Assembly: GCA_947846985.1 (NCBI GenBank)
Contig: CANTUZ010000027.1
Span: 4,416,403 to 4,480,402, forward strand
Direction of reading: 5' to 3'
Source of the DNA: Fratercula arctica
Lineage: Eukaryota; Chordata; Aves; Charadriiformes; Alcidae
DNA length: 64,000 nucleotides
Both the position numbers and the translations under genes were made by a program. This document shows, in pieces, positions 9,088 through 49,765 of the stretch. The notes under the pieces are model-generated. The model did not search any database. It was not told the DNA's origin and saw only the letters and a program-made list of their open reading frames with translations. The number at the start of each line of letters is the position of its first letter. Positions within the stretch are counted from its first letter, which is position 1.

Positions 9088-10641
9088 CCTGTTGAATGAG
9101 ACAGGAGCCATGGTGATGGAGGATGCAGAGAAGGCGGAGTTACTGCATGCCTTCTTTGCTTTGGTCTTTACTGCTCGGCCCAGCCCTCAGGAGTCCCAAG
9201 CTTTGGGGAAAGTAACGGGGAAAGAGGAAGACTTCCCCTTGGTTGAGGAGGATCAAGTGAGAGATCAATTAGACATCCACAAGTCCATGGGTCTGGATGG
9301 GATGCACCCGAGAGTGCTGAGGGAGCTGGCGGAAGTCATTGCTGGGCCGTTCTCCATCATCTTTGAAAGCTCCTGGAGAACAGGCGAGGTGCCTGAGGAC
9401 TGGAGGAAAGCCAATGTCACTCCAGTCTTCAAAAAAGGCAAGAAGGAGGAGCTGGGGAACTACAGGCCAGTCAGCCTCACCTCCATCCCTGGAAAGATGA
9501 TGGAACAGCTCGTTCTGGGCGTCATCTCAAGGCATGTGGAGGTAAATAAAGCTATCAGAAGTAGTCAACAGTGGACAGTGGGGTGGATTGAAAACTGATT
9601 GAAAGACAGAGCTCAGAGGGTCATGATTAGGGGCACAGAGTCTAGTTGGAGGTCAGTGACAAGTGGTGTTCCCCAGGGGTCAGTACTGGGTCCAGTCCTG
9701 TTCAATATATTCATCAATGACCTGGATGAAGGGATGGAGCGCACCCTCAGCAAGTTTGCCGATGACACAAAGCTGGGAGGGGTGGCTGACACACCGGAAG
9801 GCTGTGCTGCCATACAGAGAGACCTGGACAGGTTGGAGATCTGGGCAGAGAGGAACCTTATGAAATTCAACAAGGGCAAGTGTAGGGTGCTGCACCTGGG
9901 GAGGAATACCCCCATGCACCAGTACAGGTTGGGGGCTGACCTGCTGGAGAGCAGCTCTGTGGAAAGAGACCTGGGAGTCCTGGTGGACAACAGGATGACC
10001 ATGAGGCAGCAATGTGCCCTTGTGGCCAAGAAGGCCAATGGCATCCTGGGGTGCATCAAGAAGAGTGTGGCCAGTAGGTCGAGGGAGGTCATCCTCCCCC
10101 TCTCCTCTGCCCTGGTGAGGCTGCACCTTGCGTACTGTGTCCAGTTCTGGGCTCCCCGGTTCAGGAAGGACAGGGAACTGCTGGAGAGGGTACAGCAAAG
10201 GGCTACCAAGATGATTAGGGGACTAGAACACCTCTCTTATGAGGAAAGGCTGAGGGACTTGGGTCTCTTCAGTCTGGAAACAAGATGGCTGAGGGGGGAT
10301 CTTATCAACGCTTATAAATACTTAAAGGGTGGGTGTCAGGAGGATGGGGCCAGGCTCTTTTCAGTGGTGCCCAGCGACAGGACAAGAGGTAATGGGCACA
10401 AACTTGAGCATAGGAAGTTCCACCTAAACATGAGGAGGAACTTCTTTACTTTGAGGGTGGCAGAGCGCTGGAACAGGCTGCCCAGAGAGGTGGTGGAGTC
10501 TCCTTCTCTGGAGACATTCAAAACCCACCTGCACACATTCCTGTGCAACCTGCTCTAGGTGACCCTGCTCTGGCAGGGGGGTTGGACTAGATGATCTCCA
10601 GAGGTCTCTTCCAACCCTATGATTCTATGATTCTATGATGC
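9088..10641 (+). mobile_element. CR1 LINE, 3' portion with RT pseudogene (left arm)
   Basis: CR1 non-LTR retrotransposon cut off by the gap at its left. The reverse transcriptase reading frame is recognisable. It contains VTSGVPQGS and the catalytic-type FADDTKL, a C-terminal domain with [20 protein letters not shown] and [14 protein letters not shown], and ends [13 protein letters not shown] with a stop at about 10558. A 3' UTR follows with tandem TGATTCTA ends. An in-frame TGA at about 9597, where relatives have Trp, splits the frame. A block of about 60 residues carrying GFTKGKSC and DFSKAFD, present in the spacer CR1, is deleted just before it. The element is dead. Confidence 0.93.
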
Positions 10642-10849
10642 TACTACGGTCTATGGGGTTGGTAAGACTCTTGAGTAACTTTTGGGCCATTTGGGAACTG
10701 CTTAGCAAGGCTTTGCAATAAAGCTGAATTCACTGCTTTTTTTTTTTCCTGTAGCAAGGCTTCACAATAAAGCAGAGTTAACCTTTTTTTCCTTTGTGTG
10801 GGCTCCGGTTTGTACGTTGGAATCTTTAAAAAAGAACCAGTTACATAAT
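10642..10849 (+). mobile_element. 3' part of an ERV LTR (left arm)
   Basis: This sequence directly precedes a retroviral primer-binding site and contains two near-duplicate strings TAGCAAGGCTTYRCAATAAAGC, giving two AATAAA polyadenylation signals about 60 bp apart. It ends GAACCAGTTACA, compatible with an LTR 3' terminus in CA plus a 4-bp spacer. The CR1 before it has replaced or interrupted the LTR 5' part, so the full LTR is not present. Confidence 0.6.
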
Positions 10850-10867
10850 TGGCGACGAGGGTGGGAT
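10850..10867 (+). promoter_or_regulatory. Retroviral primer-binding site, tRNA-Ser type
   Basis: TGGCGACGAGGGTGGGAT complements the 3' end of a vertebrate tRNA-Ser(GCT) (CCA plus acceptor and T stem) with about one mismatch. It lies 4 bp after a CA-ended LTR edge, as expected for minus-strand DNA priming. Serine priming is unusual and differs from the tRNA-Trp priming known for exogenous avian alpharetroviruses. Confidence 0.6.
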
Positions 10868-11361
10868 TCCAATACTACAAAGTGCTTATACACTTTTAAC
10901 TTCAAATGTAAAGAATTTCAACTAAGTAGGACTGAAAACTATATTCCTCGCTGTACATGTACATTACAATGGATAGAATGGAAGAAAAAATGGAATTATA
11001 GAATGTCTCATAATACAGGTTGAAGAGCTGCATTTTAAACTGTATATGATGATTGGTTTATGCTAACAGGTGAAATACTGATATCTTAAGCTTCAAATAC
11101 TACTTGTATCATCAAAGAAGTCATTATTTAACATCATTTTTGTGAGATAATTATGTTTCTTTAGCTGTGGTAATATGCAAATAGCTAACTGGATGACAGC
11201 AAATGACTATGCAATGTTAAAAAATGAAAAGCCTAAAGCTAACATTTCCCACTTTTAAAGGAAATACAGTGGGAAGGGCCACGGGTCCAGAAAACAAATT
11301 CACACTATGCTTTTAACAGAAATCTCACAGTCTGTGTTGCAAAAATATTACAGTAGAGATA
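10868..11361. other. ERV leader-like, non-coding
   Basis: AT-rich sequence following the primer-binding site. No open frame with retroviral features is visible. It is probably decayed leader/gag or unrelated sequence. Confidence 0.4.
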
Positions 11362-11560
11362 TGGACGGGGCTTGCTCAGTGGAGTGCACAGCCACACGAA
11401 GATTGCGCTGTCCCCCCCACAGTGAATAGTGGATGGGGCTTGGTCAGTGGGGTGCACGGCTGCACCAAGATCGCGCTGTCCCCCACACCGGTGAATAGTG
11501 GATGGGGCTTGGTCAGTAGAGAGCATAGCTGCCCCAAGATTGTGCCGTCCCTGTATGGGG
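11362..11560. repeat. 68-69-bp minisatellite, three copies (left arm)
   Basis: Three tandem copies of a 68-69-bp unit starting TGGATGGGGCTTGGTCAGTG, at 11362, 11430 and 11499, each ending in CTGTCCC-rich sequence and GTGAATAG. It lies between the primer-binding site and the env remnant. Confidence 0.9.
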
Positions 11561-11972
11561 GGGCCCATGGTCGGAGCATTGTCTCCCCGAGATAGAAGTG
11601 GTATTTTTGTATGTCTACTGTGTAAGTGTGTGTGGGTGCCAGCTTATACCTGCTGATCAGCATCTGTGATACTGTTTGTTTTTTGCTGTATGCAGTGTTG
11701 TTAGGTGACTCCGCTTGAGCAGGTGTTCTGCCCGGTGTGGTACTTTTCTCATACGCAACTAGGGCTGACACTCCATCAAGCAAAGAAGTTTGTATATACA
11801 CAATGTTTAGATGTAAGGTGAGCGCGCCCCAGGTAGATAGACCAGGATGGGCCGTAGAACCGATGGAAGTCCTGAAATATTGGGGGAGTTTTCACCAGCC
11901 AATACACTTACGCTCTCGGGAATGGCTCGCCCATGCAGGCGTATGGCTGGTTGTTTGTTGTTTGCCTATAAG

Positions 11973-12181
11973 GTTGATCGGGAAAAGGAGTTGAGACAAA
12001 ATTTATAGGATGCTCTGCAGGAAAATGAGAAACTTAAGGCTAAGCTCTTGTTGCAAAGGCAGACTTTTATGTCAGCCATAAGTGATAAGGAAAAAAAAAA
12101 ACAAAACGGCAGGAACAATTAGAAAGGAAATGTGCCGCGTTAGCACAAAAGTATGCCGTATGCGCTATGAGAAAGCGGCAA
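11973..12181 (+). pseudogene. Coiled-coil-like retroviral reading-frame remnant (left arm)
   Basis: A frame rich in Glu, Lys, Gln and Leu (for example ALQENEKLKAKLLLQRQ, then RQEQLERKCAALAQKYAV) looks like a coiled coil. It is broken by one TAG after RQNL and by a frameshift in a run of 11 A. Its position between the primer-binding site and env suggests a gag-region remnant, but no family could be named. Confidence 0.35.
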
Positions 12182-12814
12182 AAAAAAAAAAAAGAGAAAT
12201 AGGACACCTGGTTCAAAGCAGTATTGTAAAGATATGGTTTGGGTTTTTTTTTCTTTCTTTTCCTATATATATGTTTATTGCATGCCTTTGTAAACTACCC
12301 CGCAAGACTAAATGAACCCCAGCAGAAGCGGTCTCTTGAGTGAGGGGGTGAAATATGGGGAAGCAACGGAAGATTGGCGAGGAGGATTGTAAATATGCTC
12401 AAGGGACTAGCACCTGGGTGCTGGAAAACACATATATCACACTAATTGTTATTCAGTCTCGGGTGCTTGCAAGAAAAACACTTGCACTTAGATGACATAA
12501 GTCTGCGATGGACTCAGGGACACCTTATCTAGCCGCTGGAGAATCCTGGCCTGTTGTTGAAGAAGATCAAGGCACAGTGGGACAACTATGCCTAAATACC
12601 AGCAAGAACAGGGAGTCCGCGCCCGGTCTTGCTAACAAGGACTCTCTCGCTGCCAAGGATTCTTGATAACAAGGACTCCTTTGCTGCCAAGGATTCTTGA
12701 TAACAAGGACTCTCTCTCACTCCACTGTGCCCATTGAGCACATGGCCGTTGGCCTATATTTACTTTTGGGTAATGCCCCCACTTTGTATCACCAGCCCCC
12801 CCATACCAAAGATA
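12182..12814. other. Decayed ERV internal sequence with 34-bp repeats
   Basis: No intact frame. It includes an A run and T-rich tracts (12181-12270) and a short minisatellite (12631-12721, listed separately). Frames before and after it have retroviral flavour, so it is probably internal ERV sequence. Confidence 0.4.
12631..12721. repeat. 34-bp minisatellite, 2.7 copies (left arm)
   Basis: Units at 12631-12664, 12665-12698 and a partial one at 12699-12721, of the form GATAACAAGGACTCYYTYGC followed by TGCCAAGGATTCTT. The alternating CAAGGACTC and CCAAGGATTC strings suggest an older 17-bp sub-unit. Confidence 0.85.
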
Positions 12815-12973
12815 TTTGCAGGTGCATGCGTATGGTATCAAGCCCCAGGAGAAGTGGGGCCCATTGCAGCCGCAGTAGTGGCAGCCGATGACACACAGGC
12901 AGTTACAATAGCGGTACCAGGAGAAGCACAGTGGCTACGTGTGCCTGCTCAGCAATTACGGTGCAGAGATTAG
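12815..12973 (+). pseudogene. Retroviral pol/env-junction-like frame (left arm)
   Basis: An open frame ends QWLRVPAQQLRCRD and a stop at 12971-12973, just upstream of the env remnant. The position fits the end of pol (integrase C-terminus), but I cannot assign it firmly. Confidence 0.3.
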
Positions 12974-13327
12974 AAGGCTGGGGGGGGTGGGGGGGGAACT
13001 CTAACCATTTCTTCTGTTTATATCGTTGAATAGGTACCTGCAAACACACTACCTCCGTGATCAAAACATCTGTGTAACTCTGGCTAATGTGGCAGGACAA
13101 GATACGCTGTGTCTTAGCACAGCCACACCCCAAAATCCGTTCACGACATGCCTAAGTGGGAGTGCCGCTAACAACTAGTGAATTCAACATGACAACCCAG
13201 GGCACTGCCGCCAGCCCCGGCCTCCAGTCAGATGCAAGCATCATCAAAGTATGAGACAGCTGGCTCCCATATATTGGGGAGTCCCCTGCGTTACCGCCCC
13301 AGGAACTCCGCATTTTAGGAACGCTAA

Positions 13328-13819
13328 ATGCGGACCTATGCGGTTTGTTTTTTTTCCTTCTACATCAGTAGAAACAACACCACAGTCTCCTGGTGGGTCA
13401 ATGCCACCACCCCGTGGTACCAGAATAACACACAATGGTGTAATACTACTAGTCCAAATACCACAAAGAGTTACTCGACAGATATGACTCTCTCACCAGG
13501 ACTGTTTTTGATCTGTGGGGACCAGGTGTAGGCTGGAATTCACAAAGCAATTAAAGAAGGACCATGTACATTAGGCCGACAGACTATTTTTAATCCCAGT
13601 GTCACTGTAGCTTTATGGTTACAACAGAACCAAACATTACACCGACATCGACGTGATGTACATGCACTTCCCCCATACTGCAACGACCAAACTGAATTCT
13701 GGGGTCCTGCCAGGACCATAGCCGCATCCATTTTAGCCCCGGGAGTTGCCAGTGCACAAGCGTTGACGACCCTGAATAAACTTGGATGCTGGTTAGCCAA
13801 GTTTAATAATGCTACTAGT
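13328..13819 (+). pseudogene. env: env remnant: end of SU and start of TM (left arm)
   Basis: A single frame shows a glycosylation-rich surface-subunit stretch with several N-X-T/S sites (NNTT, NATT, NNT, NTT). It then shows GLFLICGDQ, a basic RHRR cleavage-type motif at about 13640, and a hydrophobic fusion-peptide-like region (ASILAPGVASAQAL) followed by NNATS. These features and their order fit the Env of avian alpharetroviruses. A TAG at 13529-13531, probably from TGG, interrupts the frame. Sequence upstream (about 13180-13330) is frame-shifted. The frame breaks at 13819/13820, where an LTR fragment begins. It is not functional. Confidence 0.75.
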
Positions 13820-14277
13820 TGTGGAATAATTATTAAGATGATCAAAAATACAGCATTGTTCACACATTAAGGAAAGGTACCCTGAGCCAACGGTTTGTCA
13901 AATTTTGACGAAATGCTGTCCCTTTGTGCGAACTTTGCTCATTATAATGTCATTATAATACCAAAACACACCTCCATCCCAAAGGCTACCCGCCTCCAAG
14001 GTGCGACCACTCCTCCTTGAGTCTGCGCCCTGAATTTTTCGTAAACTATGCCTTTAAATGTGAGGCGAGAAAATTTTACACCAATCATAATAAAGGTATT
14101 TATGACTAAAGTCACTCAAACTCCACCTTTAAGATAACAAATACTATAAAAATAGCCCAAGAAAGGGGGAATATCAGGGAAGAGACCATCGCGAACAAGT
14201 CGAAGAGAACTCCATCACTGACTTCCGGGATCAGTCGACGGACTGAGCCTTTCTTCCCCCTGTAGGGACGCCTTTGG
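13820..14277 (+). mobile_element. Partial LTR inside env (left arm)
   Basis: It starts TGTGGAATAATTA, exactly like the two solo LTRs (17749 and 26580), and carries the same U3 with TATAAAAATAG at about 14142. It lacks about 185 bp after AAGGAAAGGTA. It stops at GGACGCCTTTGG, precisely the point where the full LTRs continue with a splice donor (GG|GTAAGAC). The next base starts the remaining TM part of env. Confidence 0.8.
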
Positions 14278-14651
14278 CTCATGGACATGGTTGTCAAGAT
14301 TTTAAAGGATTGTGTTGTATGAATCTAAGTGACCACTCCAAATCCATCCATGCCCAGTTGCAAGAACTGCACAGACTGAACCAGCAACTTGTGGAGACCA
14401 CTGGGTGGAACCTGTTTGCTGGATGGACTTGGGGGTGGGGTTGGTTGAAGCAAATTATACTCATTGCCTGTGTGGAAGGAATTTGTCTGTTATGTTTAGT
14501 ATGCTGTTTGCTGTGTTTAATAAGCATTATACGATCAGTTGTAGATGCCGCTTTGCATTGTACCCTTGTACAAGTTGTAGAATACCGTCGTGTCCCAACT
14601 ACGGACCACAGGGTGGCATGTGCAAGGGATAATAGAGGATGGTCCGAGTGA
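14278..14651 (+). pseudogene. env: env remnant: TM ectodomain end and membrane anchor (left arm)
   Basis: The frame opens [19 protein letters not shown], containing the C-X6-CC motif of retroviral transmembrane subunits, in the sequence style of avian alpharetroviruses. It continues through an amphipathic [12 protein letters not shown] segment, a Trp-rich membrane-proximal region (GWTWGWGWL) and a long hydrophobic anchor rich in Leu, Cys and Ile, ending at TGA 14649-14651. About 40 residues between the preceding env part and this one are missing, replaced by the LTR fragment. Confidence 0.8.
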
Positions 14652-14877
14652 GACACGATGGAAAATTACTAGTTGAACCAAACCCAGTATACACGTTGGG
14701 AAAAAGGGACTCAGTACTGCTGCTGCAAAAACTATGTGTGTATCCATGAGAACCTGACCTTCAAAGAAGAAGATAACAAGAAGGGAGTACAACAATGTAG
14801 TCAGGTACCAGACAGCCGCTGTTAGCAAAGCTGGATCATGAGTCTGGTGAGGCTCGCTGCATGCGCTGGCCACGCGT
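14652..14877. other. Post-env ERV sequence
   Basis: Short non-coding stretch between the env stop and the next CR1, probably the 3' end of the retroviral internal region. No LTR start or polypurine tract is clear. Confidence 0.4.
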
Positions 14878-15589
14878 GGCTAGAAAGATGCCCAGCAGAA
14901 AAGGACCTGAGGGTGCTGGTGGACAGCCAGCTTAACACGAGCCAGCAGTGTGCCCAGGTGGCCAAGAAGGCCAACAGCATTCTGGCTTGTATCAGGAATA
15001 GCGTGGCCAGCAGGAGTAGGGAAGTGATCGTGCCTCTGTACTCGGCACTGGTGAGGCCTCACCTCGAGTACTGTGTTCAGTTCTGGGCCCCTCTGTACAA
15101 GAGGGACATTGAAGCGCTGGAGCGGGTCCAGAGGAGAGCTACCAAGCTGGGGAGGGGTCTGGAGACCAAGTCATATGAGGAGAGGCTGAGGGAGCTGGGC
15201 ATGTTTAGTTTGGAGAAGAGGAGGCTGAGGGGAGACCTCATTGCCCTCTACAACTACCTGAAAGGAGGGTGTAGAGAGGTGGGTGTTGGCCTCTTCTCCC
15301 AGGTGAATAATGACAGGACCAGAGGAAATGCTCTGAAGCTGTGGCAGGGGAGGTTTAGATTAGATATTAGGAAGAATTACTGTACTGAAAGAGTGGTCAG
15401 GCACTGGAACAGCCTGCCCAGGGAGGTGGCTGAGTCACCATCCCTAGAGGTATTTAAGAAACGTGTAGATGTGGCACTTCAGGGCATGCTCTAGTGACAG
15501 AGATTGTAGGGGGTTTTTTTGTGTGTGTATGGTTGGACTTGATGATCTCAAAGGTCCTTTCCAACCATGAAGATTCTATGATTCTATGA
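14878..15589 (+). mobile_element. CR1 LINE, 3' end with open RT C-terminus (left arm)
   Basis: 5'-truncated CR1. It keeps one uninterrupted frame for the C-terminal part of ORF2 ([18 protein letters not shown], then [20 protein letters not shown], ending VDVALQGML). A 3' UTR with GGTTGGACTTGATGATCTC follows, then the terminal GATTCTATGATTCTATG at 15572-15589. Confidence 0.95.
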
Positions 15590-15947
15590 AAACAAACTTG
15601 TTTTGTGCCTTGTCATATGTTCCAAGGTCTGAATTGTAAATGGACAGTGAAATAATGATTTGTTATAGAAGAGGACTGAACAAATTATAGAACTATGCAG
15701 ATGACCTAGAAGCCTCTTCTAACATCCAAGAAAGGTGGCAGGCCAGTCTAACACGTGATTAGATCATCATCATCTCACCTCTGACTCTGAAGGCTCAAAG
15801 GTCACTATCACAACTAAGAATCAGAAATATGTTGCCTAACCTCTGGGTTTGTTTTTTTTTTCCCTTTCTTTTTTAACCAAAGCATTTAAATCAGTGCCTT
15901 TCTTAGAAGGAAGAAGGTACTAGTGATCTCCTACTACTTCATCTGAA
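15590..15947. other. Unique intervening sequence
   Basis: AT-rich, with a T-rich tract at 15850-15872. Nothing recognisable. Confidence 0.4.
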
Positions 15948-16413
15948 GGGCAAGAAGGAGAATGCAGGGAACTATAGGCCAGTCAGCCTCACCTTGATCC
16001 CTGAGAAGGTGATGAACAGCTAATCTTGGAAGCACATTTCCAGGCACATGAAGGACAAGAAAAATCATCAAGAGCAGTCAGCAAGGACTCACCAAGGGGA
16101 AGTCATACTTGGCCAGCCTGATAGCCTTCTACAATGAAATGACTGGCCTAATAGATGAGGGGAGAGCAGTGGATATTGTCTACCTTGACTTCAGTAAGGT
16201 TTTTGACACTGTCTCCCATAAGATCCTCATAGAGAAGCTGATGAAGTATGGGTTGGATGAGTAGACAGTGGAGGTGGACTGAAAAACTGGCTGAATGGCT
16301 GGACCCAGAGGGTGGTGATCAATGGAACGAAGTCTAGTTGGAGGCCAGTAACTAGCAGTGTATCCCCGGGGTCATTACTGGGTTCAGTCCAGTTCAACAT
16401 CTTCATTAAGTTA
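15948..16413 (+). mobile_element. CR1 LINE fragment, RT core (left arm)
   Basis: Truncated at both ends. It covers the reverse transcriptase palm region corresponding to [14 protein letters not shown] and DFSKVFDTVSHKIL in a frame broken by several stops and shifts, and ends near the equivalent of SGVPQGS (AGCAGTGTATCCCCGGGGTC). Confidence 0.9.
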
Positions 16414-17748
16414 TAACACATATCACACGTCACACATAAACACAACATATACATACTATTCTTTGTATTCCCTCTGATGCTAGAAAAAGGTCTTTTAGTT
16501 ATCTATAATACATACAGCGAAAGCCTTCCAACTCCCAAGGGTACACACAATCATTTCATGGACAATTTTTAAGTGCCAAACTTTGTTTAAAATCCAAAAA
16601 GCATACTTCATTGTGCACCACTCACACGTTGCTTCACATAACCTTGCTAATACCTACTACAAGATTAATGTGAATGTAAATATTAATTGTCAAAAATATG
16701 AAAACAAGTTTTTATTTCTTAACATTCTGCTGTGGGATGGAACTCAGCTGACAAATTTACTTACAGAAATCCCTGAATAAAAACTTCTGATATTGACAGA
16801 GTTTTCTTTTTTTATTGGCCTGCCTGCAATTTTTTATGCCTTCATCTTTAATTATCAGCATCTGATGTTCAGTTACTGAGAACATTTGAACTCTAGTAAA
16901 ACAAGTGGATGACTATAACTGATTAATATCTCCACAAATCAAGTTTAGACATAAACATCTAAGCTAGAATCTTGGACCGTGTTTCTTTATCCATGGGTCA
17001 TTACAAGAAAAATCCTCACTGCACATACTGGAGGTAGAGACATGAAAAATCCTTCCCTCAAGTACATGGGAGAATGTGAACTAACATTCCTTTTAAAGGA
17101 CTGCACGTACCTGTGATCTGATGACTGGTAAAATGCTAATGGCAATGTTATCTTAGTTGTACTTCTCAAGGCCTGCTAAGACCTTGGTTTCACCTTGTAA
17201 AATAAAATTGAGATTATGCTCCTTTTACTTAGGCCATAATTTTGTGGGAGTTTTAAAAAAAAAAAAAATATCTTACATGATAACTCATGTACCTTTATAT
17301 GACACTGCAAAGAATAAAAAAAAGCATGAATGTGGAGAGAAAGGAAAAATCTGAGAAACCTAAGCTTGTGGCCTGGTGCTCGCAATTCACTGGCACAATG
17401 CTGCAACACCACAGCAATTGCTTTGATCTTCCTCCCTAGTTATTCCTCTTCCCTTTATAGAACCTCTGAAATGTCATTGCTACTGAGATGTGATTAAAAT
17501 ATATCCTAATACCTATAAATAGAAAAGTTGGTTCAAGTATTAATTCAGAATAAGTAAAGCATTTGGAAACTCACAGCAATATTCCTTTCCAACGGGAAGA
17601 GTCCTTCAGGAACAGACTGCTCCAGGCATTTTCCCTCACAGGGTCACAGGTCCTGTCAGAAAACCTGCTCCTGCATGGGCTCCTCTCCATGGACTGCAGC
17701 TTCCTTCAGAGCACATCCACCTGCTCCAGCATGGAGTCCATCACCAGC
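16414..17748. other. Unique AT-rich sequence
   Basis: No gene recognised. The last 170 bp (about 17580-17748) are a more GC-rich string with CTGCTCC and CATGGACTGCAGC motifs that looks like an old repeat fragment. The neighbouring solo LTR inserted at its end. Confidence 0.4.
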
Positions 17749-18916
17749 TGTGGAATAATTACTAAAATGGCCAAAAATACAGCATTGTTCACACATTAAG
17801 GAAAGGTATAAAATCAAAAGGCTTCTAAGGTAGAATACAGCCGCAGCTGGCATGCGAAGAATTCAACATCTGCGATTCCCTGTACAATATTGCTTGCAAA
17901 GCTACACAGGGGATGGAGCGGAATGTGACCTTCCATGGCCCTGCCCTGTGATATACAGCAGATATGGGAACAAGATGGTACTATGGAACCGATAAGCCGC
18001 ATACTTGCTACCGTGAGCCAACATTTTGTCAAATTTTGATGAAATGCTGTCCTTTGCGCGAACTTTGCTCATTATAATGTCATTGTAATACCAAAACACA
18101 CCTCCATCCCAAAGGCTACCCGCCTCCAAGGTGCGACCACTCCTTCTTGAGTCTGCGCCCTGAATTTTTCATAAACTATACCTTTAAATGTGAAGTGAGA
18201 GAATTTTACACCAATCATAATTAAAGTATTTATGACTAAAGTCACTCAAACTCCACCTTGAAGGTAAAAAATAGTATAAAAACAGCCCAAGAAAGGGGGG
18301 ATATCAGGGAGGACACCATCGTGAACAAGTCAGGGAGGACTCCATCACAGACTGCCTTTGACTTCCGGGACCAGTCAACGGACTAAGCCTTTCTCCCGCC
18401 CCATAGGGACGCCTGTGGGTAAGACTTAGACTATACCGAGTGCTTCCTCGGGGAACTTAGAAATTTCTCCAGAGAATCTCTTTCCTACATTTATAGCCAG
18501 GCTGTATTGTTTATAACTTTGTCACGCGTTTTGTATACTTAACAACATCTTTATTTGCACGTGCTTTGCAGACAGTGTATTTATCACCGGCGATCCTAAG
18601 AACCTATCTATCTGTTGTTTAAATAAACTGCACTGTTTAAGTAGCTAGTCGTTTCGGTTTCTCATTGAACGTGACCAAAGACTTGAGGGTGGCCGTGCTA
18701 GTTCATGAGCATGACTAGACTGAAGGTGCAGTCCACTATTAGTGTATCCAAATCATAACAGTTTAATATATTAAACGCGATTGGACTGATAGTGCTGAAT
18801 TGGGCATCACTCAGAATTTAAACCTAGCCGCACCTAGCCTCCCACCTCGGTGAGGAGTGTTAGAACGCAAGGGGGTTTATCTTCTGCCAAAACCGCTTTG
18901 TCCCTTTCACGCAACA
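17749..18916 (+). mobile_element. Solo LTR, 1,168 bp (left arm)
   Basis: It starts TGTGGAATAATTAC, ends ACGCAACA, and is flanked by the perfect 5-bp target duplication CCAGC (17744-17748 and 18917-18921). The U3 ends with a TATA box (TATAAAAA at about 18275). R contains a splice donor GG|GTAAGAC at 18418/18419 and AATAAA at 18622-18627, followed by about 290 bp of R/U5. No internal region is attached, so it is a solo LTR formed by recombination. A 5-bp duplication is more typical of ERVL-like or some ERVK-like elements than of 6-bp alpharetroviruses. Confidence 0.88.
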
Positions 18917-18921
18917 CCAGC

Positions 18922-19337
18922 TGCAGGGGAATCTCTGCTGTGGCACCTTGAATACCTCCTCCCCCTCCTTCTTCACTGACCTTGGTGTCTGCAGGGTGGT
19001 TTCTTGCACATTTTCTCACTCATCTCTCTCACAGCTACTGTGCAGCATTATTCACCCTTTCTTACATATGTTATCACAGAGGCGCCACCAGCTCTGACGA
19101 TTGGTTCAGCTTTAGCCAGCAGCAGGTCCATCTTGGAGCCATCTGAAATTGGCTGTGTCTGACATAGGGAGCACTGTCTGGTGTCTTCTCACAGAAGCCA
19201 CGCCTGCAGTCTTCCCCGCTAACAAAACCTTGCAAAATAAACCCAATACAATGATACATTCTTCCCCAAGATCACTGTTTTTTCACCCTTCTCCTCTGAG
19301 CGATACTCCACTGTGAGGGTGTGCTAGTCAGTCACAC
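18922..19337. other. Unique sequence
   Basis: Mixed base composition; no gene, repeat or RNA recognised. Confidence 0.4.
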
Positions 19338-20565: not shown

Positions 20566-20569
20566 AGTA

Positions 20570-20697
20570 TTTATGTGGGTGACTCACGAGTTTTTCATCT
20601 TATTTTCTCACCCCTGTCCCACTGAGGAGGGGGAGTGAGAGAGCGGCATGGTAGGCACATGGCGACCAGTCAAAGTCAACCCACCACACGCTACGTC
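20570..20697 (-). mobile_element. Avian LTR fragment (left arm)
   Basis: On the minus strand TGGTGGGTTGACTTTGACTGG, then CTCTCACTCCCCCTCCTCAG, GGGACAGGGGTGAGAAAATA and ACTCGTGAGTC resemble the conserved 5' part of widespread bird ERVL-type LTRs. It is truncated against the CR1. Confidence 0.45.
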
Positions 20698-20849
20698 AAA
20701 TTTTTATCACATTTGGAAACTCTCTACTCCTGCCTCACTATTCATGTCCCCCTCCATTGTATCAATGTGTTAAGCAGGTACAAAAAGTAATCAGTGAAGG
20801 GGAAATTCAAATTGTAACTGCTCAACGATGGTAATTTGTGATCGAGGAA
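20698..20849. other. Short unassigned sequence
   Basis: Possibly internal ERV sequence (GTATCAATGTGTTAAGCAGG and GGAAATTCAAATTGTAAC), but not assignable. Confidence 0.3.
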
Positions 20850-25394: not shown

Positions 25395-25399
25395 GGAAG

Positions 25400-26580: not shown

Positions 26581-26585
26581 GAAAG

Positions 26586-38155: not shown

Positions 38156-38283
38156 GACGTAGCGTGTGGTGGGTTGACTTTGACTGGTCGCCATGTGCCT
38201 ACCATGCCGCTCTCTCACTCCCCCTCCTCAGTGGGACAGGGGTGAGAAAATAAGATGAAAAACTCGTGAGTCACCCACATAAA
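38156..38283 (+). mobile_element. Avian LTR fragment (right arm)
   Basis: Mirror of 20570-20697. Confidence 0.45.
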
Positions 38284-38287
38284 TACT

Positions 38288-39515: not shown

Positions 39516-39936
39516 GTGTGACTGACTAGCACACCCTCACAGTGGAGTATCGCTCAGAGGAGAAGGGTGAAAAAACAGTGATCTTGGGGAAGAATGTATC
39601 ATTGTATTGGGTTTATTTTGCAAGGTTTTGTTAGCGGGGAAGACTGCAGGCGTGGCTTCTGTGAGAAGACACCAGACAGTGCTCCCTATGTCAGACACAG
39701 CCAATTTCAGATGGCTCCAAGATGGACCTGCTGCTGGCTAAAGCTGAACCAATCGTCAGAGCTGGTGGCGCCTCTGTGATAACATATGTAAGAAAGGGTG
39801 AATAATGCTGCACAGTAGCTGTGAGAGAGATGAGTGAGAAAATGTGCAAGAAACCACCCTGCAGACACCAAGGTCAGTGAAGAAGGAGGGGGAGGAGGTA
39901 TTCAAGGTGCCACAGCAGAGATTCCCCTGCAGCTGG

Positions 39937-41104
39937 TGTTGCGTGAAAGGGACAAAGCGGTTTTGGCAGAAGATAAACCCCCTTGCGTTCTAACACTCCT
40001 CACCGAGGTGGGAGGCTAGGTGCGGCTAGGTTTAAATTCTGAGTGATGCCCAATTCAGCACTATCAGTCCAATCGCGTTTAATATATTAAACTGTTATGA
40101 TTTGGATACACTAATAGTGGACTGCACCTTCAGTCTAGTCATGCTCATGAACTAGCACGGCCACCCTCAAGTCTTTGGTCACGTTCAATGAGAAACCGAA
40201 ACGACTAGCTACTTAAACAGTGCAGTTTATTTAAACAACAGATAGATAGGTTCTTAGGATCGCCGGTGATAAATACACTGTCTGCAAAGCACGTGCAAAT
40301 AAAGATGTTGTTAAGTATACAAAACGCGTGACAAAGTTATAAACAATACAGCCTGGCTATAAATGTAGGAAAGAGATTCTCTGGAGAAATTTCTAAGTTC
40401 CCCGAGGAAGCACTCGGTATAGTCTAAGTCTTACCCACAGGCGTCCCTATGGGGCGGGAGAAAGGCTTAGTCCGTTGACTGGTCCCGGAAGTCAAAGGCA
40501 GTCTGTGATGGAGTCCTCCCTGACTTGTTCACAATGGTGTCCTCCCTGATATCCCCCCTTTCTTGGGCTGTTTTTATACTATTTTTTACCTTCAAGGTGG
40601 AGTTTGAGTGACTTTAGTCATAAATACTTTAATTATGATTGGTGTGAAATTCTCTCACTTCACATTTAAAGGTATAGTTTATGAAAAATTCAGGGCGCAG
40701 ACTCAAGAAGGAGTGGTCGCACCTTGGAGGCGGGTAGCCTTTGGGATGGAGGTGTGTTTTGGTATTACAATGACATTATAATGAGCAAAGTTCGCGCAAA
40801 GGACAGCATTTCATCAAAATTTGACAAAATGTTGGCTCACGGTAGCAAGTATGCGGCTTATCGGTTCCATAGTACCATCTTGTTCCCATATCTGCTGTAT
40901 ATCACAGGGCAGGGCCATGGAAGGTCACATTCCGCTCCATCCCCTGTGTAGCTTTGCAAGCAATATTGTACAGGGAATCGCAGATGTTGAATTCTTCGCA
41001 TGCCAGCTGCGGCTGTATTCTACCTTAGAAGCCTTTTGATTTTATACCTTTCCTTAATGTGTGAACAATGCTGTATTTTTGGCCATTTTAGTAATTATTC
41101 CACA
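39937..41104 (-). mobile_element. Solo LTR with CCAGC target duplication (right arm)
   Basis: Mirror of 17749-18916; the duplication reads GCTGG on the plus strand. Two single-base differences from the left copy were noted (TTCACACC versus TTTACACC, and CATTGTGAAC versus CATCGTGAAC). Confidence 0.88.
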
Positions 41105-42439
41105 GCTGGTGATGGACTCCATGCTGGAGCAGGTGGATGTGCTCTGAAGGAAGCTGCAGTCCATGGAGAGGAGCCCATGCAGGAGCAGGTTTTCTGACAG
41201 GACCTGTGACCCTGTGAGGGAAAATGCCTGGAGCAGTCTGTTCCTGAAGGACTCTTCCCGTTGGAAAGGAATATTGCTGTGAGTTTCCAAATGCTTTACT
41301 TATTCTGAATTAATACTTGAACCAACTTTTCTATTTATAGGTATTAGGATATATTTTAATCACATCTCAGTAGCAATGACATTTCAGAGGTTCTATAAAG
41401 GGAAGAGGAATAACTAGGGAGGAAGATCAAAGCAATTGCTGTGGTGTTGCAGCATTGTGCCAGTGAATTGCGAGCACCAGGCCACAAGCTTAGGTTTCTC
41501 AGATTTTTCCTTTCTCTCCACATTCATGCTTTTTTTTATTCTTTGCAGTGTCATATAAAGGTACATGAGTTATCATGTAAGATATTTTTTTTTTTTTTAA
41601 AACTCCCACAAAATTATGGCCTAAGTAAAAGGAGCATAATCTCAATTTTATTTTACAAGGTGAAACCAAGGTCTTAGCAGGCCTTGAGAAGTACAACTAA
41701 GATAACATTGCCATTAGCATTTTACCAGTCATCAGATCACAGGTACGTGCAGTCCTTTAAAAGGAATGTTAGTTCACATTCTCCCATGTACTTGAGGGAA
41801 GGATTTTTCATGTCTCTACCTCCAGTATGTGCAGTGAGGATTTTTCTTGTAATGACCCATGGATAAAGAAACACGGTCCAAGATTCTAGCTTAGATGTTT
41901 ATGTCTAAACTTGATTTGTGGAGATATTAATCAGTTATAGTCATCCACTTGTTTTACTAGAGTTCAAATGTTCTCAGTAACTGAACATCAGATGCTGATA
42001 ATTAAAGATGAAGGCATAAAAAATTGCAGGCAGGCCAATAAAAAAAGAAAACTCTGTCAATATCAGAAGTTTTTATTCAGGGATTTCTGTAAGTAAATTT
42101 GTCAGCTGAGTTCCATCCCACAGCAGAATGTTAAGAAATAAAAACTTGTTTTCATATTTTTGACAATTAATATTTACATTCACATTAATCTTGTAGTAGG
42201 TATTAGCAAGGTTATGTGAAGCAACGTGTGAGTGGTGCACAATGAAGTATGCTTTTTGGATTTTAAACAAAGTTTGGCACTTAAAAATTGTCCATGAAAT
42301 GATTGTGTGTACCCTTGGGAGTTGGAAGGCTTTCGCTGTATGTATTATAGATAACTAAAAGACCTTTTTCTAGCATCAGAGGGAATACAAAGAATAGTAT
42401 GTATATGTTGTGTTTATGTGTGACGTGTGATATGTGTTA

Positions 42440-42905
42440 TAACTTAATGAAGATGTTGAACTGGACTGAACCCAGTAATGACCCCGGGGATACACTGCTA
42501 GTTACTGGCCTCCAACTAGACTTCGTTCCATTGATCACCACCCTCTGGGTCCAGCCATTCAGCCAGTTTTTCAGTCCACCTCCACTGTCTACTCATCCAA
42601 CCCATACTTCATCAGCTTCTCTATGAGGATCTTATGGGAGACAGTGTCAAAAACCTTACTGAAGTCAAGGTAGACAATATCCACTGCTCTCCCCTCATCT
42701 ATTAGGCCAGTCATTTCATTGTAGAAGGCTATCAGGCTGGCCAAGTATGACTTCCCCTTGGTGAGTCCTTGCTGACTGCTCTTGATGATTTTTCTTGTCC
42801 TTCATGTGCCTGGAAATGTGCTTCCAAGATTAGCTGTTCATCACCTTCTCAGGGATCAAGGTGAGGCTGACTGGCCTATAGTTCCCTGCATTCTCCTTCT
42901 TGCCC
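42440..42905 (-). mobile_element. CR1 LINE fragment, RT core (right arm)
   Basis: Mirror of 15948-16413. Confidence 0.9.
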
Positions 42906-43263
42906 TTCAGATGAAGTAGTAGGAGATCACTAGTACCTTCTTCCTTCTAAGAAAGGCACTGATTTAAATGCTTTGGTTAAAAAAGAAAGGGAAAAAAAAA
43001 ACAAACCCAGAGGTTAGGCAACATATTTCTGATTCTTAGTTGTGATAGTGACCTTTGAGCCTTCAGAGTCAGAGGTGAGATGATGATGATCTAATCACGT
43101 GTTAGACTGGCCTGCCACCTTTCTTGGATGTTAGAAGAGGCTTCTAGGTCATCTGCATAGTTCTATAATTTGTTCAGTCCTCTTCTATAACAAATCATTA
43201 TTTCACTGTCCATTTACAATTCAGACCTTGGAACATATGACAAGGCACAAAACAAGTTTGTTT

Positions 43264-43975
43264 TCATAGAATCATAGAATCTTCATGGTTGGAAAGGACC
43301 TTTGAGATCATCAAGTCCAACCATACACACACAAAAAAACCCCCTACAATCTCTGTCACTAGAGCATGCCCTGAAGTGCCACATCTACACGTTTCTTAAA
43401 TACCTCTAGGGATGGTGACTCAGCCACCTCCCTGGGCAGGCTGTTCCAGTGCCTGACCACTCTTTCAGTACAGTAATTCTTCCTAATATCTAATCTAAAC
43501 CTCCCCTGCCACAGCTTCAGAGCATTTCCTCTGGTCCTGTCATTATTCACCTGGGAGAAGAGGCCAACACCCACCTCTCTACACCCTCCTTTCAGGTAGT
43601 TGTAGAGGGCAATGAGGTCTCCCCTCAGCCTCCTCTTCTCCAAACTAAACATGCCCAGCTCCCTCAGCCTCTCCTCATATGACTTGGTCTCCAGACCCCT
43701 CCCCAGCTTGGTAGCTCTCCTCTGGACCCGCTCCAGCGCTTCAATGTCCCTCTTGTACAGAGGGGCCCAGAACTGAACACAGTACTCGAGGTGAGGCCTC
43801 ACCAGTGCCGAGTACAGAGGCACGATCACTTCCCTACTCCTGCTGGCCACGCTATTCCTGATACAAGCCAGAATGCTGTTGGCCTTCTTGGCCACCTGGG
43901 CACACTGCTGGCTCGTGTTAAGCTGGCTGTCCACCAGCACCCTCAGGTCCTTTTCTGCTGGGCATCTTTCTAGCC
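43264..43975 (-). mobile_element. CR1 LINE 3' end (right arm)
   Basis: Mirror of 14878-15589, with the same uninterrupted C-terminal ORF2 frame. Confidence 0.95.
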
Positions 43976-44201
43976 ACGCGTGGCCAGCGCATGCAGCGAG
44001 CCTCACCAGACTCATGATCCAGCTTTGCTAACAGCGGCTGTCTGGTACCTGACTACATTGTTGTACTCCCTTCTTGTTATCTTCTTCTTTGAAGGTCAGG
44101 TTCTCATGGATACACACATAGTTTTTGCAGCAGCAGTACTGAGTCCCTTTTTCCCAACGTGTATACTGGGTTTGGTTCAACTAGTAATTTTCCATCGTGT
44201 C

Positions 44202-44575
44202 TCACTCGGACCATCCTCTATTATCCCTTGCACATGCCACCCTGTGGTCCGTAGTTGGGACACGACGGTATTCTACAACTTGTACAAGGGTACAATGCAA
44301 AGCGGCATCTACAACTGATCGTATAATGCTTATTAAACACAGCAAACAGCATACTAAACATAACAGACAAATTCCTTCCACACAGGCAATGAGTATAATT
44401 TGCTTCAACCAACCCCACCCCCAAGTCCATCCAGCAAACAGGTTCCACCCAGTGGTCTCCACAAGTTGCTGGTTCAGTCTGTGCAGTTCTTGCAACTGGG
44501 CATGGATGGATTTGGAGTGGTCACTTAGATTCATACAACACAATCCTTTAAAATCTTGACAACCATGTCCATGAG
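44202..44575 (-). pseudogene. env: env remnant, TM part (right arm)
   Basis: Mirror of 14278-14651, with the C-X6-CC motif and membrane anchor. Confidence 0.8.
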
Positions 44576-45033
44576 CCAAAGGCGTCCCTACAGGGGGAAG
44601 AAAGGCTCAGTCCGTCGACTGATCCCGGAAGTCAGTGATGGAGTTCTCTTCGACTTGTTCGCGATGGTCTCTTCCCTGATATTCCCCCTTTCTTGGGCTA
44701 TTTTTATAGTATTTGTTATCTTAAAGGTGGAGTTTGAGTGACTTTAGTCATAAATACCTTTATTATGATTGGTGTAAAATTTTCTCGCCTCACATTTAAA
44801 GGCATAGTTTACGAAAAATTCAGGGCGCAGACTCAAGGAGGAGTGGTCGCACCTTGGAGGCGGGTAGCCTTTGGGATGGAGGTGTGTTTTGGTATTATAA
44901 TGACATTATAATGAGCAAAGTTCGCACAAAGGGACAGCATTTCGTCAAAATTTGACAAACCGTTGGCTCAGGGTACCTTTCCTTAATGTGTGAACAATGC
45001 TGTATTTTTGATCATCTTAATAATTATTCCACA
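44576..45033 (-). mobile_element. Partial LTR inside env (right arm)
   Basis: Mirror of 13820-14277. Confidence 0.8.
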
Positions 45034-45525
45034 ACTAGTAGCATTATTAAACTTGGCTAACCAGCATCCAAGTTTATTCAGGGTCGTCAACGCTTGTGCA
45101 CTGGCAACTCCCGGGGCTAAAATGGATGCGGCTATGGTCCTGGCAGGACCCCAGAATTCAGTTTGGTCGTTGCAGTATGGGGGAAGTGCATGTACATCAC
45201 GTCGATGTCGGTGTAATGTTTGGTTCTGTTGTAACCATAAAGCTACAGTGACACTGGGATTAAAAATAGTCTGTCGGCCTAATGTACATGGTCCTTCTTT
45301 AATTGCTTTGTGAATTCCAGCCTACACCTGGTCCCCACAGATCAAAAACAGTCCTGGTGAGAGAGTCATATCTGTCGAGTAACTCTTTGTGGTATTTGGA
45401 CTAGTAGTATTACACCATTGTGTGTTATTCTGGTACCACGGGGTGGTGGCATTGACCCACCAGGAGACTGTGGTGTTGTTTCTACTGATGTAGAAGGAAA
45501 AAAAACAAACCGCATAGGTCCGCAT
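45034..45525 (-). pseudogene. env: env remnant, SU end and TM start (right arm)
   Basis: Mirror of 13328-13819, with the same in-frame stop. Confidence 0.75.
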
Positions 45526-45879
45526 TTAGCGTTCCTAAAATGCGGAGTTCCTGGGGCGGTAACGCAGGGGACTCCCCAATATATGGGAGCCAGCTGTCTC
45601 ATACTTTGATGATGCTTGCATCTGACTGGAGGCCGGGGCTGGCGGCAGTGCCCTGGGTTGTCATGTTGAATTCACTAGTTGTTAGCGGCACTCCCACTTA
45701 GGCATGTCGTGAACGGATTTTGGGGTGTGGCTGTGCTAAGACACAGCGTATCTTGTCCTGCCACATTAGCCAGAGTTACACAGATGTTTTGATCACGGAG
45801 GTAGTGTGTTTGCAGGTACCTATTCAACGATATAAACAGAAGAAATGGTTAGAGTTCCCCCCCCACCCCCCCCAGCCTT

Positions 45880-46038
45880 CTAATCTCTGCACCGTAATTG
45901 CTGAGCAGGCACACGTAGCCACTGTGCTTCTCCTGGTACCGCTATTGTAACTGCCTGTGTGTCATCGGCTGCCACTACTGCGGCTGCAATGGGCCCCACT
46001 TCTCCTGGGGCTTGATACCATACGCATGCACCTGCAAA
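45880..46038 (-). pseudogene. Retroviral pol/env-junction-like frame (right arm)
   Basis: Mirror of 12815-12973. Confidence 0.3.
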
Positions 46039-46131
46039 TATCTTTGGTATGGGGGGGCTGGTGATACAAAGTGGGGGCATTACCCAAAAGTAAATATAGG
46101 CCAACGGCCATGTGCTCAATGGGCACAGTGG

Positions 46132-46222
46132 AGTGAGAGAGAGTCCTTGTTATCAAGAATCCTTGGCAGCAAAGGAGTCCTTGTTATCAAGAATCCTTGG
46201 CAGCGAGAGAGTCCTTGTTAGC
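46132..46222. repeat. 34-bp minisatellite (right arm)
   Basis: Mirror of 12631-12721. Confidence 0.85.
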
Positions 46223-46672
46223 AAGACCGGGCGCGGACTCCCTGTTCTTGCTGGTATTTAGGCATAGTTGTCCCACTGTGCCTTGATCTTCTTCAACAAC
46301 AGGCCAGGATTCTCCAGCGGCTAGATAAGGTGTCCCTGAGTCCATCGCAGACTTATGTCATCTAAGTGCAAGTGTTTTTCTTGCAAGCACCCGAGACTGA
46401 ATAACAATTAGTGTGATATATGTGTTTTCCAGCACCCAGGTGCTAGTCCCTTGAGCATATTTACAATCCTCCTCGCCAATCTTCCGTTGCTTCCCCATAT
46501 TTCACCCCCTCACTCAAGAGACCGCTTCTGCTGGGGTTCATTTAGTCTTGCGGGGTAGTTTACAAAGGCATGCAATAAACATATATATAGGAAAAGAAAG
46601 AAAAAAAAACCCAAACCATATCTTTACAATACTGCTTTGAACCAGGTGTCCTATTTCTCTTTTTTTTTTTTT

Positions 46673-46881
46673 TTGCCGCTTTCTCATAGCGCATACGGCA
46701 TACTTTTGTGCTAACGCGGCACATTTCCTTTCTAATTGTTCCTGCCGTTTTGTTTTTTTTTTTCCTTATCACTTATGGCTGACATAAAAGTCTGCCTTTG
46801 CAACAAGAGCTTAGCCTTAAGTTTCTCATTTTCCTGCAGAGCATCCTATAAATTTTGTCTCAACTCCTTTTCCCGATCAAC
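46673..46881 (-). pseudogene. Coiled-coil-like retroviral frame remnant (right arm)
   Basis: Mirror of 11973-12181. The adjacent homopolymer run is one base longer here (15 versus 14). Confidence 0.35.
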
Positions 46882-47293
46882 CTTATAGGCAAACAACAAA
46901 CAACCAGCCATACGCCTGCATGGGCGAGCCATTCCCGAGAGCGTAAGTGTATTGGCTGGTGAAAACTCCCCCAATATTTCAGGACTTCCATCGGTTCTAC
47001 GGCCCATCCTGGTCTATCTACCTGGGGCGCGCTCACCTTACATCTAAACATTGTGTATATACAAACTTCTTTGCTTGATGGAGTGTCAGCCCTAGTTGCG
47101 TATGAGAAAAGTACCACACCGGGCAGAACACCTGCTCAAGCGGAGTCACCTAACAACACTGCATACAGCAAAAAACAAACAGTATCACAGATGCTGATCA
47201 GCAGGTATAAGCTGGCACCCACACACACTTACACAGTAGACATACAAAAATACCACTTCTATCTCGGGGAGACAATGCTCCGACCATGGGCCC

Positions 47294-47492
47294 CCCCATA
47301 CAGGGACGGCACAATCTTGGGGCAGCTATGCTCTCTACTGACCAAGCCCCATCCACTATTCACCGGTGTGGGGGACAGCGCGATCTTGGTGCAGCCGTGC
47401 ACCCCACTGACCAAGCCCCATCCACTATTCACTGTGGGGGGGACAGCGCAATCTTCGTGTGGCTGTGCACTCCACTGAGCAAGCCCCGTCCA
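47294..47492. repeat. 68-69-bp minisatellite (right arm)
   Basis: Mirror of 11362-11560. Confidence 0.9.
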
Positions 47493-47986
47493 TATCTCTA
47501 CTGTAATATTTTTGCAACACAGACTGTGAGATTTCTGTTAAAAGCATAGTGTGAATTTGTTTTCTGGACCCGTGGCCCTTCCCACTGTATTTCCTTTAAA
47601 AGTGGGAAATGTTAGCTTTAGGCTTTTCATTTTTTAACATTGCATAGTCATTTGCTGTCATCCAGTTAGCTATTTGCATATTACCACAGCTAAAGAAACA
47701 TAATTATCTCACAAAAATGATGTTAAATAATGACTTCTTTGATGATACAAGTAGTATTTGAAGCTTAAGATATCAGTATTTCACCTGTTAGCATAAACCA
47801 ATCATCATATACAGTTTAAAATGCAGCTCTTCAACCTGTATTATGAGACATTCTATAATTCCATTTTTTCTTCCATTCTATCCATTGTAATGTACATGTA
47901 CAGCGAGGAATATAGTTTTCAGTCCTACTTAGTTGAAATTCTTTACATTTGAAGTTAAAAGTGTATAAGCACTTTGTAGTATTGGA

Positions 47987-48004
47987 ATCCCACCCTCGTC
48001 GCCA
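47987..48004 (-). promoter_or_regulatory. Primer-binding site, tRNA-Ser type (right arm)
   Basis: Mirror of 10850-10867; reads TGGCGACGAGGGTGGGAT on the minus strand. Confidence 0.6.
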
Positions 48005-48212
48005 ATTATGTAACTGGTTCTTTTTTAAAGATTCCAACGTACAAACCGGAGCCCACACAAAGGAAAAAAAGGTTAACTCTGCTTTATTGTGAAGCCTTGC
48101 TACAGGAAAAAAAAAAAGCAGTGAATTCAGCTTTATTGCAAAGCCTTGCTAAGCAGTTCCCAAATGGCCCAAAAGTTACTCAAGAGTCTTACCAACCCCA
48201 TAGACCGTAGTA
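48005..48212 (-). mobile_element. 3' part of an ERV LTR (right arm)
   Basis: Mirror of 10642-10849, with both AATAAA signals. Confidence 0.6.
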
Positions 48213-49765
48213 GCTTCACGGAATCACAGAATCATAGGGTTGGAAGAGACCTCTGGAGATCATCTAGTCCAACCCCCCTGCCAGAGCAGGGTCACCTAGA
48301 GCAGGTTGCACAGGAATGTGTGCAGGTGGGTTTTGAATGTCTCCAGAGACGGAGACTCCACCACCTCTCTGGGCAGCCTGTTCCAGTGCTCTGCCACCCT
48401 CAAAGTAAAGAAGTTCCTCCTCATGTTTAGGTGGAACTTCCTGTGCTCAAGTTTGTGCCCATTACCTCTTGTCCTGTCGCTGGGCACCACTGAAAAGAGC
48501 CTGGCCCCATCCTCCTGACACCCACCCTTTAAGTATTTATAAGCGTTGATAAGATCCCCCCTCAGCCATCTTGTTTCCAGACTGAAGAGACCCAAGTCCC
48601 TCAGCCTTTCCTCATAAGAGAGGTGTTCTAGTCCCCTAATCATCTTGGTAGCCCTTTGCTGTACCCTCTCCAGCAGTTCCCTGTCCTTCCTGAACCGGGG
48701 AGCCCAGAACTGGACACAGTACGCAAGGTGCAGCCTCACCAGGGCAGAGGAGAGGGGGAGGATGACCTCCCTCGACCTACTGGCCACACTCTTCTTGATG
48801 CACCCCAGGATGCCATTGGCCTTCTTGGCCACAAGGGCACATTGCTGCCTCATGGTCATCCTGTTGTCCACCAGGACTCCCAGGTCTCTTTCCACAGAGC
48901 TGCTCTCCAGCAGGTCAGCCCCCAACCTGTACTGGTGCATGGGGGTATTCCTCCCCAGGTGCAGCACCCTACACTTGCCCTTGTTGAATTTCATAAGGTT
49001 CCTCTCTGCCCAGATCTCCAACCTGTCCAGGTCTCTCTGTATGGCAGCACAGCCTTCCGGTGTGTCAGCCACCCCTCCCAGCTTTGTGTCATCGGCAAAC
49101 TTGCTGAGGGTGCGCTCCATCCCTTCATCCAGGTCATTGATGAATATATTGAACAGGACTGGACCCAGTACTGACCCCTGGGGAACACCACTTGTCACTG
49201 ACCTCCAACTAGACTCTGTGCCCCTAATCATGACCCTCTGAGCTCTGTCTTTCAATCAGTTTTCAATCCACCCCACTGTCCACTGTTGACTACTTCTGAT
49301 AGCTTTATTTACCTCCACATGCCTTGAGATGACGCCCAGAACGAGCTGTTCCATCATCTTTCCAGGGATGGAGGTGAGGCTGACTGGCCTGTAGTTCCCC
49401 AGCTCCTCCTTCTTGCCTTTTTTGAAGACTGGAGTGACATTGGCTTTCCTCCAGTCCTCAGGCACCTCGCCTGTTCTCCAGGAGCTTTCAAAGATGATGG
49501 AGAACGGCCCAGCAATGACTTCCGCCAGCTCCCTCAGCACTCTCGGGTGCATCCCATCCAGACCCATGGACTTGTGGATGTCTAATTGATCTCTCACTTG
49601 ATCCTCCTCAACCAAGGGGAAGTCTTCCTCTTTCCCCGTTACTTTCCCCAAAGCTTGGGACTCCTGAGGGCTGGGCCGAGCAGTAAAGACCAAAGCAAAG
49701 AAGGCATGCAGTAACTCCGCCTTCTCTGCATCCTCCATCACCATGGCTCCTGTCTCATTCAACAG
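48213..49765 (-). mobile_element. CR1 LINE with RT pseudogene (right arm)
   Basis: Mirror of 9088-10641, cut by the second gap. It carries most of the differences between the arms, e.g. a His codon where the left arm has Arg (AEHWNR versus AERWNR) and a tail GATTCTGTGATTCCGTGAAG versus GATTCTATGATTCTATGATG. Confidence 0.93.

Follow-up and report, generated by a model that had tools for sequence, protein, structure and literature searches.

Is a contig that reads from end to end as one palindrome a piece of the chromosome, or has it been made by the sequencing or the assembly? The question is raised by an unplaced contig of the puffin Fratercula arctica (assembly GCA_947846985.1), which occupies positions 9088-49765 of the window analysed here, a stretch of 64,000 nucleotides of CANTUZ010000027.1 (C27:4416403-4480402); unless another sequence is named, all positions are those of the window, and the assembly that has been searched comprises 1,214,569,813 bp in 28 sequences. 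The contig, 40,678 bp in length, carries one sequence of 19.7 kb in two copies of opposite orientation, which are separated by a loop of 1,274 bp. On balance, we favour the reading that it is a real, young and gene-poor palindrome of the W chromosome, similar to those of the duck W chromosome, and that it was formed by the fold-back of a broken DNA strand.

When the window is aligned with its reverse complement by BLASTN, the two arms (9089-28789 against 49765-30064) form one match of 19,703 columns at an identity of 99.934%, in which 10 mismatches and three one-base gaps are found and the coordinate sum stays at 58853-58854; chance is excluded as the source of a match of 19.7 kb. Arms that are more than 99.9% identical and a short spacer are among the features by which sex-chromosome palindromes are recognised, and both are found here. 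Runs of exactly 200 Ns border the contig on both sides (8888-9087 and 49766-49965), and the two contig ends mirror each other to one base, the left end carrying one additional base (CCTGTTG vs CTGTTG). A first-pass annotation had described the contig as one palindrome with mirrored ends, which the self-match and the end symmetry bear out; the arm length of 19,690 bp and the spacer at 28779-30075 that it proposed were close to the exact boundaries, which are listed in the table, and missed them because one substitution and one indel sit within 11 bp of the spacer.

The loop and the novel joint are read directly from the sequence. The spacer belongs to a fragment of CR1, a long interspersed element (LINE), which we refer to as CR1_b and which runs antisense from 30063 leftward, over the spacer and into arm 1. 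Seven paralogues of CR1_b on C25, another sequence of the assembly, align without a break through the joint between arm 1 and the spacer (J1), and the same seven extend upstream past the point at 30063 where CR1_b stops; therefore, J1 is native, and the joint between the spacer and arm 2 (J2) is new. The spacer is thus unduplicated and only one of its two edges is new, as is expected from a fold-back; because J1 is the native joint, arm 1 and the spacer would be the original sequence and arm 2 the copy.

At J2, there is no strict microhomology, assuming that the native CR1_b continued like its paralogues: the paralogues read GTTAGTGGG before and CCTACATT after the joint position, the joint continues with AGAGAGAC, and the template reads CCAGTTCA followed by AGAGAGAC, with zero shared bases on either side. 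The first 11 bases past J2 differ from arm 1 by one substitution and one indel, changes that, judging from the sequence, resemble a small repair scar. The 31-mer that spans J2 occurs once in the assembly, even when up to 2 mismatches are allowed. A candidate 8-bp microhomology at J2 has been ruled out, since the bases concerned are part of the copied arm, and CR1 continues differently in the paralogues.

The favoured sequence of events would start with a break inside CR1_b that frees a 3' end; the freed strand would then fold back on itself, leaving a loop of about 1.3 kb, its end would join, or prime on, CR1_b sequence located 1,274 bases behind it, and 19.7 kb of arm 1 would be copied into arm 2. 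We infer that this fold-back took place in the living bird rather than in vitro or during assembly. It, or otherwise the most recent homogenisation of the two arms, would be younger than both the insertion of CR1_b and that of an element resembling a long terminal repeat (LTR) at 25400-26580, because both arms carry the LTR-like element and the 3' part of CR1_b. The high identity of the arms is explained equally well by a recent origin as by gene conversion from arm to arm.

The chromosomal origin of the contig is approached through three pieces of the arm. Two of them occur at three places of the assembly each (3 of 3 candidate places scored): the piece 23000-25300 is found in the two arms (100%) and at C26:45117475-45120099 (72-87%) only, and the piece 26600-28300 in the two arms (100%) and at C26:45115646-45117334 (71%) only. 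At 70-88% identity, the arm follows C26 collinearly between 21333 and 28229, apart from the precise insertion of the 1.18-kb LTR-like element, to which copies at 17748-18917 and 13878-14277 are related. For the third piece, 10650-12900 (40 of 876 candidates scored), the matches listed amount to 63, i.e. the two arms (100%, full length) and 61 weaker ones, of which 54 are located on C25, three elsewhere on C27 and four on other chromosomes; the weaker matches are 83-95% identical over their matched parts, and the best non-arm match that covers most of the piece reaches 90%. The seven best listed matches of the spacer after itself are likewise located on C25 (95-96%; 40 of 8,017 candidates scored), and its reverse transcriptase is nearest to shorebird proteins (Limosa, Rissa, Calidris) at 81-84%, among the best 120 of 5,232, which hints at a charadriiform bird.

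On these patterns, C26 (84.0 Mb) behaves as the Z chromosome and C25 (28.4 Mb) as the W, and the palindrome contig, with its Z-like partner on C26 and its W-enriched outer repeat, looks W-derived. The likeness to sex-chromosome palindromes that had been suggested from the sequence alone thus gains support as regards a W-like origin, from the Z-like partner and the C25-rich outer repeat, while the contig itself is unplaced. For the C26 sequence that lies beyond the loop, the assembly contains no W partner, the only matches being the sequence itself (100%) and 28 short repeats; such an absence would fit a deletion on the W, a failed assembly or a dropped branch.

The two arms are separated by 13 differences, two of which fall in the last 11 bp beside the spacer (chance 2.4e-5), the others being nine substitutions and two homopolymer-length changes. 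All ten substitutions fall in repeats. Seven of the nine non-junction substitutions are packed in 229 bp (10411-10639) at the 3' tail of CR1_a, the CR1 element of the outer arm end, a clustering that was reached in 0 of 20,000 random draws; the remaining two, at 18207 and 18320, are located in an LTR-like repeat. At these two sites, the seven other compared copies that cover both of them (nine rows, mirror images included) carry the bases of arm 1 and, therefore, the bases of arm 2 are private. Within the cluster, arm 1 at 10467 and arm 2 at 10504 carry a base that is absent from every other compared copy covering the site. Such arm-private substitutions, as read from the compared copies, favour two physical arms. 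Conversion of the differing CR1_a patch from CR1_b has been considered and ruled out, in view of the mixed pattern at the seven sites.

Table. Features of the palindrome contig, in window positions (C25 and C26 are other sequences of the assembly).
Feature	Position	Strand	Remarks
Whole unplaced contig	9088..49765	.	40,678 bp between two 200-N gaps
Arm 1, putative original arm	9089..28789	+	19,701 bp; BLASTN; collinear with C26 over 21333-28229
Spacer (loop)	28790..30063	.	1,274 bp, entirely within CR1_b (antisense)
Arm 2, putative inverted copy	30064..49765	-	19,702 bp; BLASTN
J1, joint of arm 1 and spacer	28789..28790	.	CR1_b crosses unbroken, as in seven paralogues
J2, sole novel inner joint	30063..30064	.	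CR1_b cut and joined to inverted inner part of itself
CR1_b, LINE fragment	28320..30063	-	reverse transcriptase open reading frame at 28968-30047
Inverted 3' remainder of CR1_b, inner end of arm 2	30064..30535	+	
CR1_a, outer end of arm 1	9088..10640	+	
CR1_a copy, outer end of arm 2	48214..49765	-	
Cluster of seven substitutions	10411..10639	+	mirror 48215-48443
Repeat amplified mainly on C25	10650..12900	+	54 of 61 non-arm matches listed
LTR-like element, 1.18 kb, precise insertion relative to C26 partner	25400..26580	.	mirror about 32273-33454

It is also possible, although we hold it to be doubtful, that the palindrome is a fold-back artefact of the reads or of the assembly and that the true locus is single-copy. 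A 21.0-kb fragment of the W chromosome (9088-30063) might be shortened at its right end by about 1.3 kb on one strand, after which the long strand would close into a hairpin during library preparation, or a chimeric read would arise, so that both strands would be read consecutively; alternatively, the assembler might walk along a fold-back read and then along the same reads in reverse. The one-base mirroring of the ends and the near-central fold form the pattern that is targeted by the symmetry filter described in PMC12870357: the distance of J2 from the midpoint at 29426 is 637 bp, or 1.6% of the contig, well inside the 10% that the Breakinator criterion allows for the fold, whereas the 1,274-bp spacer exceeds the 200 bp within which the same criterion places the second segment, on the other strand. 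Fold-back reads make up about 0.55-0.6% of Oxford Nanopore reads of genomic DNA in PMC12870357, where one example has about 2 kb between its segments, and palindromes are reported in 11.8% and 45.8% of the reads of two whole-genome amplification data sets vs 0.5% of a non-amplified PacBio control in PMC6218980. The position of the contig in a pile of unplaced contigs, and the lack of an assembled W partner beyond the loop, which might reflect a dropped branch, point in the same direction.

One argument for a real palindrome is that no non-palindromic copy of the three pieces 23000-25300, 26600-28300 and 10650-12900, which together make up less than half of the arm, has been assembled. Ordinary reads should outnumber a rare chimera, and it is hard to see how a rare chimeric read would have overridden the normal locus when the two arms hold the only copies of about 100% identity to the three pieces. 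The arm-private substitutions likewise oppose an artefact, if the chromosome is haploid, and so does the fact that this contig is the only palindromic one among the seven whole contigs of C27 that were examined (at thresholds of 97% and >1.5 kb, and of 90%). In PMC12870357, which covers three PacBio samples in all, high-fidelity data are virtually without fold-backs, an argument that would hold if the present assembly were built from such reads. Compared with the long-read artefacts described in PMC12870357 and PMC6218980, the puffin contig is alike in its near-perfect midpoint symmetry and its mirrored ends, and differs in its spacer of more than 200 bp, its arm-private substitutions and the lack of any normally arranged copy of the three pieces in the assembly. 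A hairpin adapter that was missed would by itself give no 1,274-bp spacer, and has been set aside for this reason. A real palindrome that has been collapsed in the assembly graph would likewise be expected to end at mirrored points, where its flanks diverge; mirrored ends follow from both the real and the artefactual origin and, therefore, do not decide between them.

That the arms are real inverted duplicates of the W chromosome which lie apart, with their adjacency through J2 being an assembly join, appears very unlikely to us: the arm-private substitutions require two copies and not their adjacency, and J2 lacks strict microhomology and is accompanied by two small changes, as might be the case at a false join; against this, J2 is located inside a gapless contig, where no shared flanking sequence would mislead the assembler, and its 31-mer occurs once in the assembly. 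The tail-to-tail joining of two Z or autosomal haplotypes of one locus, which the first-pass annotation had named among its possible errors, would agree with arms that differ by only 0.07%; yet, outside the arms, the two single-copy pieces are found only on C26, at an identity of 71-87%, so that the arm looks like haploid W sequence, and the arm differences are clustered rather than spread. We have thus ruled haplotype joining out, and grant it hardly any credence.

Several observations weigh against the W palindrome that we favour. One-base mirroring of the ends is what a single hairpin molecule, or an assembly path that uses one read twice, is expected to leave; the contig is small and unplaced, and thus belongs to the class where artefacts collect; and there is no outer flank to compare, since the W partner beyond the loop is unassembled, nor has any overlap been found between the ends of the contig and its window neighbours that would provide a link to a flank. 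The substitutions between the arms are all located in repeats, where polishing errors accumulate as well, and the CR1 copies behind the calls of private bases are only 66-81% like CR1_a, so that a closer unseen copy could be their source. The CR1 of the spacer is not specific to the W, with 32 of its 39 other listed matches being located on other chromosomes at 93-95%, and C25 and C26 carry no chromosome names, their W and Z assignments being our own.

Beyond the fold-back itself, the palindrome may record one complete repair of a break in the W chromosome, a proposal that we consider unlikely. CR1_a is oriented opposite to CR1_b, and the outer end of the contig is located in CR1_a about 3 bases, in CR1 coordinates, from the break in CR1_b, an agreement that was noticed after the fact and without a computed probability. 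According to this proposal, CR1_b would break, its end would fold back and copy 19.7 kb until it reached CR1_a, its inverted relative, and CR1 homology would then allow the copied strand to be rejoined, at the same CR1 position, to the other end of the break. Such a repair would explain both the agreement to about 3 bases between the outer end of the arm and the CR1_b break, and the position of both contig ends at that point; the end of a random fragment would not explain this coincidence. If the proposal is true, CR1 5' sequence of the CR1_b type is expected directly to the right of 49765, followed by the W partner of C26 below 45,115,646, and inverted LINE pairs could seed palindromes on a chromosome that is unable to recombine.

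As regards its coding content, 14 frames of the contig have been scanned with Pfam, i.e. 13 of the 63 contig frames of at least 75 codons and the frame of the spacer. Two of them match the CR1 reverse transcriptase, and the other 12 match no Pfam family, spliced genes not having been searched for; six window frames outside the contig have no Pfam match either, and Rfam gives 0 matches at the gathering score. The description of the palindrome as ampliconic, proposed in the first-pass annotation, is unsupported by these frames, and no function is seen, as no gene was found among them. By eye, the region 10650-14650 and its mirror resemble a degraded endogenous retrovirus with an envelope-like frame, which has no Pfam match. 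Because no gene has been found in the contig, the W palindrome probably arose passively, as a by-product of a chromosome that is rich in repeats and does not recombine.

The scaffold offers no further guidance on the locus. Successive whole contigs of C27 measure 42,829, 42,085, 40,678 (the palindrome), 40,631 and 40,463 bp, with 200 Ns between them, and the last two contigs measure 10,162 and 10,088 bp; C27, of which about 0.29 of 5.99 Mb was examined, is therefore read as a length-sorted pile of unplaced contigs with a cut-off of about 10 kb. In such a pile, the window neighbours are uninformative on the locus of the palindrome, and placing the contig by them has been ruled out. The GC-rich (guanine- and cytosine-rich) sequence to its left and the polypurine satellite to its right would, accordingly, not be its genomic neighbours. 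The former has a GC content of 68-76% at 2000-6000, with G-rich minisatellites, e.g. of 12- and 24-bp units at 4281-4619; the contig that includes it (C27:4383205-4425289, with window positions 1-8887) holds four copies of the 1.18-kb LTR-like element of the arm, at a spacing of about 9 kb and at 94-95% identity to 25399-26581. The satellite, at 50900-64000, is extreme in its composition (AT skew of about 0.8, GC skew of about 0.7); its unit measures about 44 bp, and blocks at 51620, 55433, 59248 and 63061 mark a higher-order period of about 3,813 bp. Another contig of C27, covered in part, contains a tandem array of about 12.2 kb (C27:4547862-4580402), in every unit of which short and possibly masked runs of 63 and 75 Ns recur at one position; this contig also holds inverted pieces of 1.57 kb.

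Among known systems, the palindromes of the Pekin duck W chromosome, which are composed of nested repeats without robustly expressed genes and measure 15.2-345.5 kb according to PMC7787181, are comparable with the puffin contig in their nested repeats, in the W-linkage that we propose and in size, as 40.7 kb lies within the reported range; the puffin sequence differs in being one unplaced contig without outer flanks, whose joint is resolved to the base. In PMC3907307, all 21 sequenced junctions of human fold-back inverted duplications have an unduplicated spacer (766-70,466 bp), a likeness shared by the 1,274 bp found here; 13 of the 21 have 2-8 bp of inverted microhomology, three are located in homologous LINE or SINE (short interspersed element) pairs and five carry insertions, whereas J2 of the puffin is marked by small changes and is devoid of strict microhomology. 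The human cases are, moreover, large duplications beside terminal deletions or translocations, or in rings, while the puffin arms end after 19.7 kb.

A literature search for W-chromosome palindromes in Charadriiformes has returned no report. A W-linked palindrome of New World sparrows and blackbirds was reportedly described by Davis et al. in 2010, in a work whose title names gene conversion, and is reported to carry a gene; the puffin palindrome would likewise be W-linked, with no gene found in the frames of the contig that have been scanned.

If the puffin palindrome is an artefact, the sequence of the arm has been counted twice in the assembly, as a false duplication of the W chromosome, and in either case, a scaffold that is merely a pile of unplaced contigs sorted by length should not be taken for a locus. 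If it is real, it would be a young palindrome of the W chromosome with a founding joint that can be read at single-base resolution, and the way in which such palindromes start would become testable.

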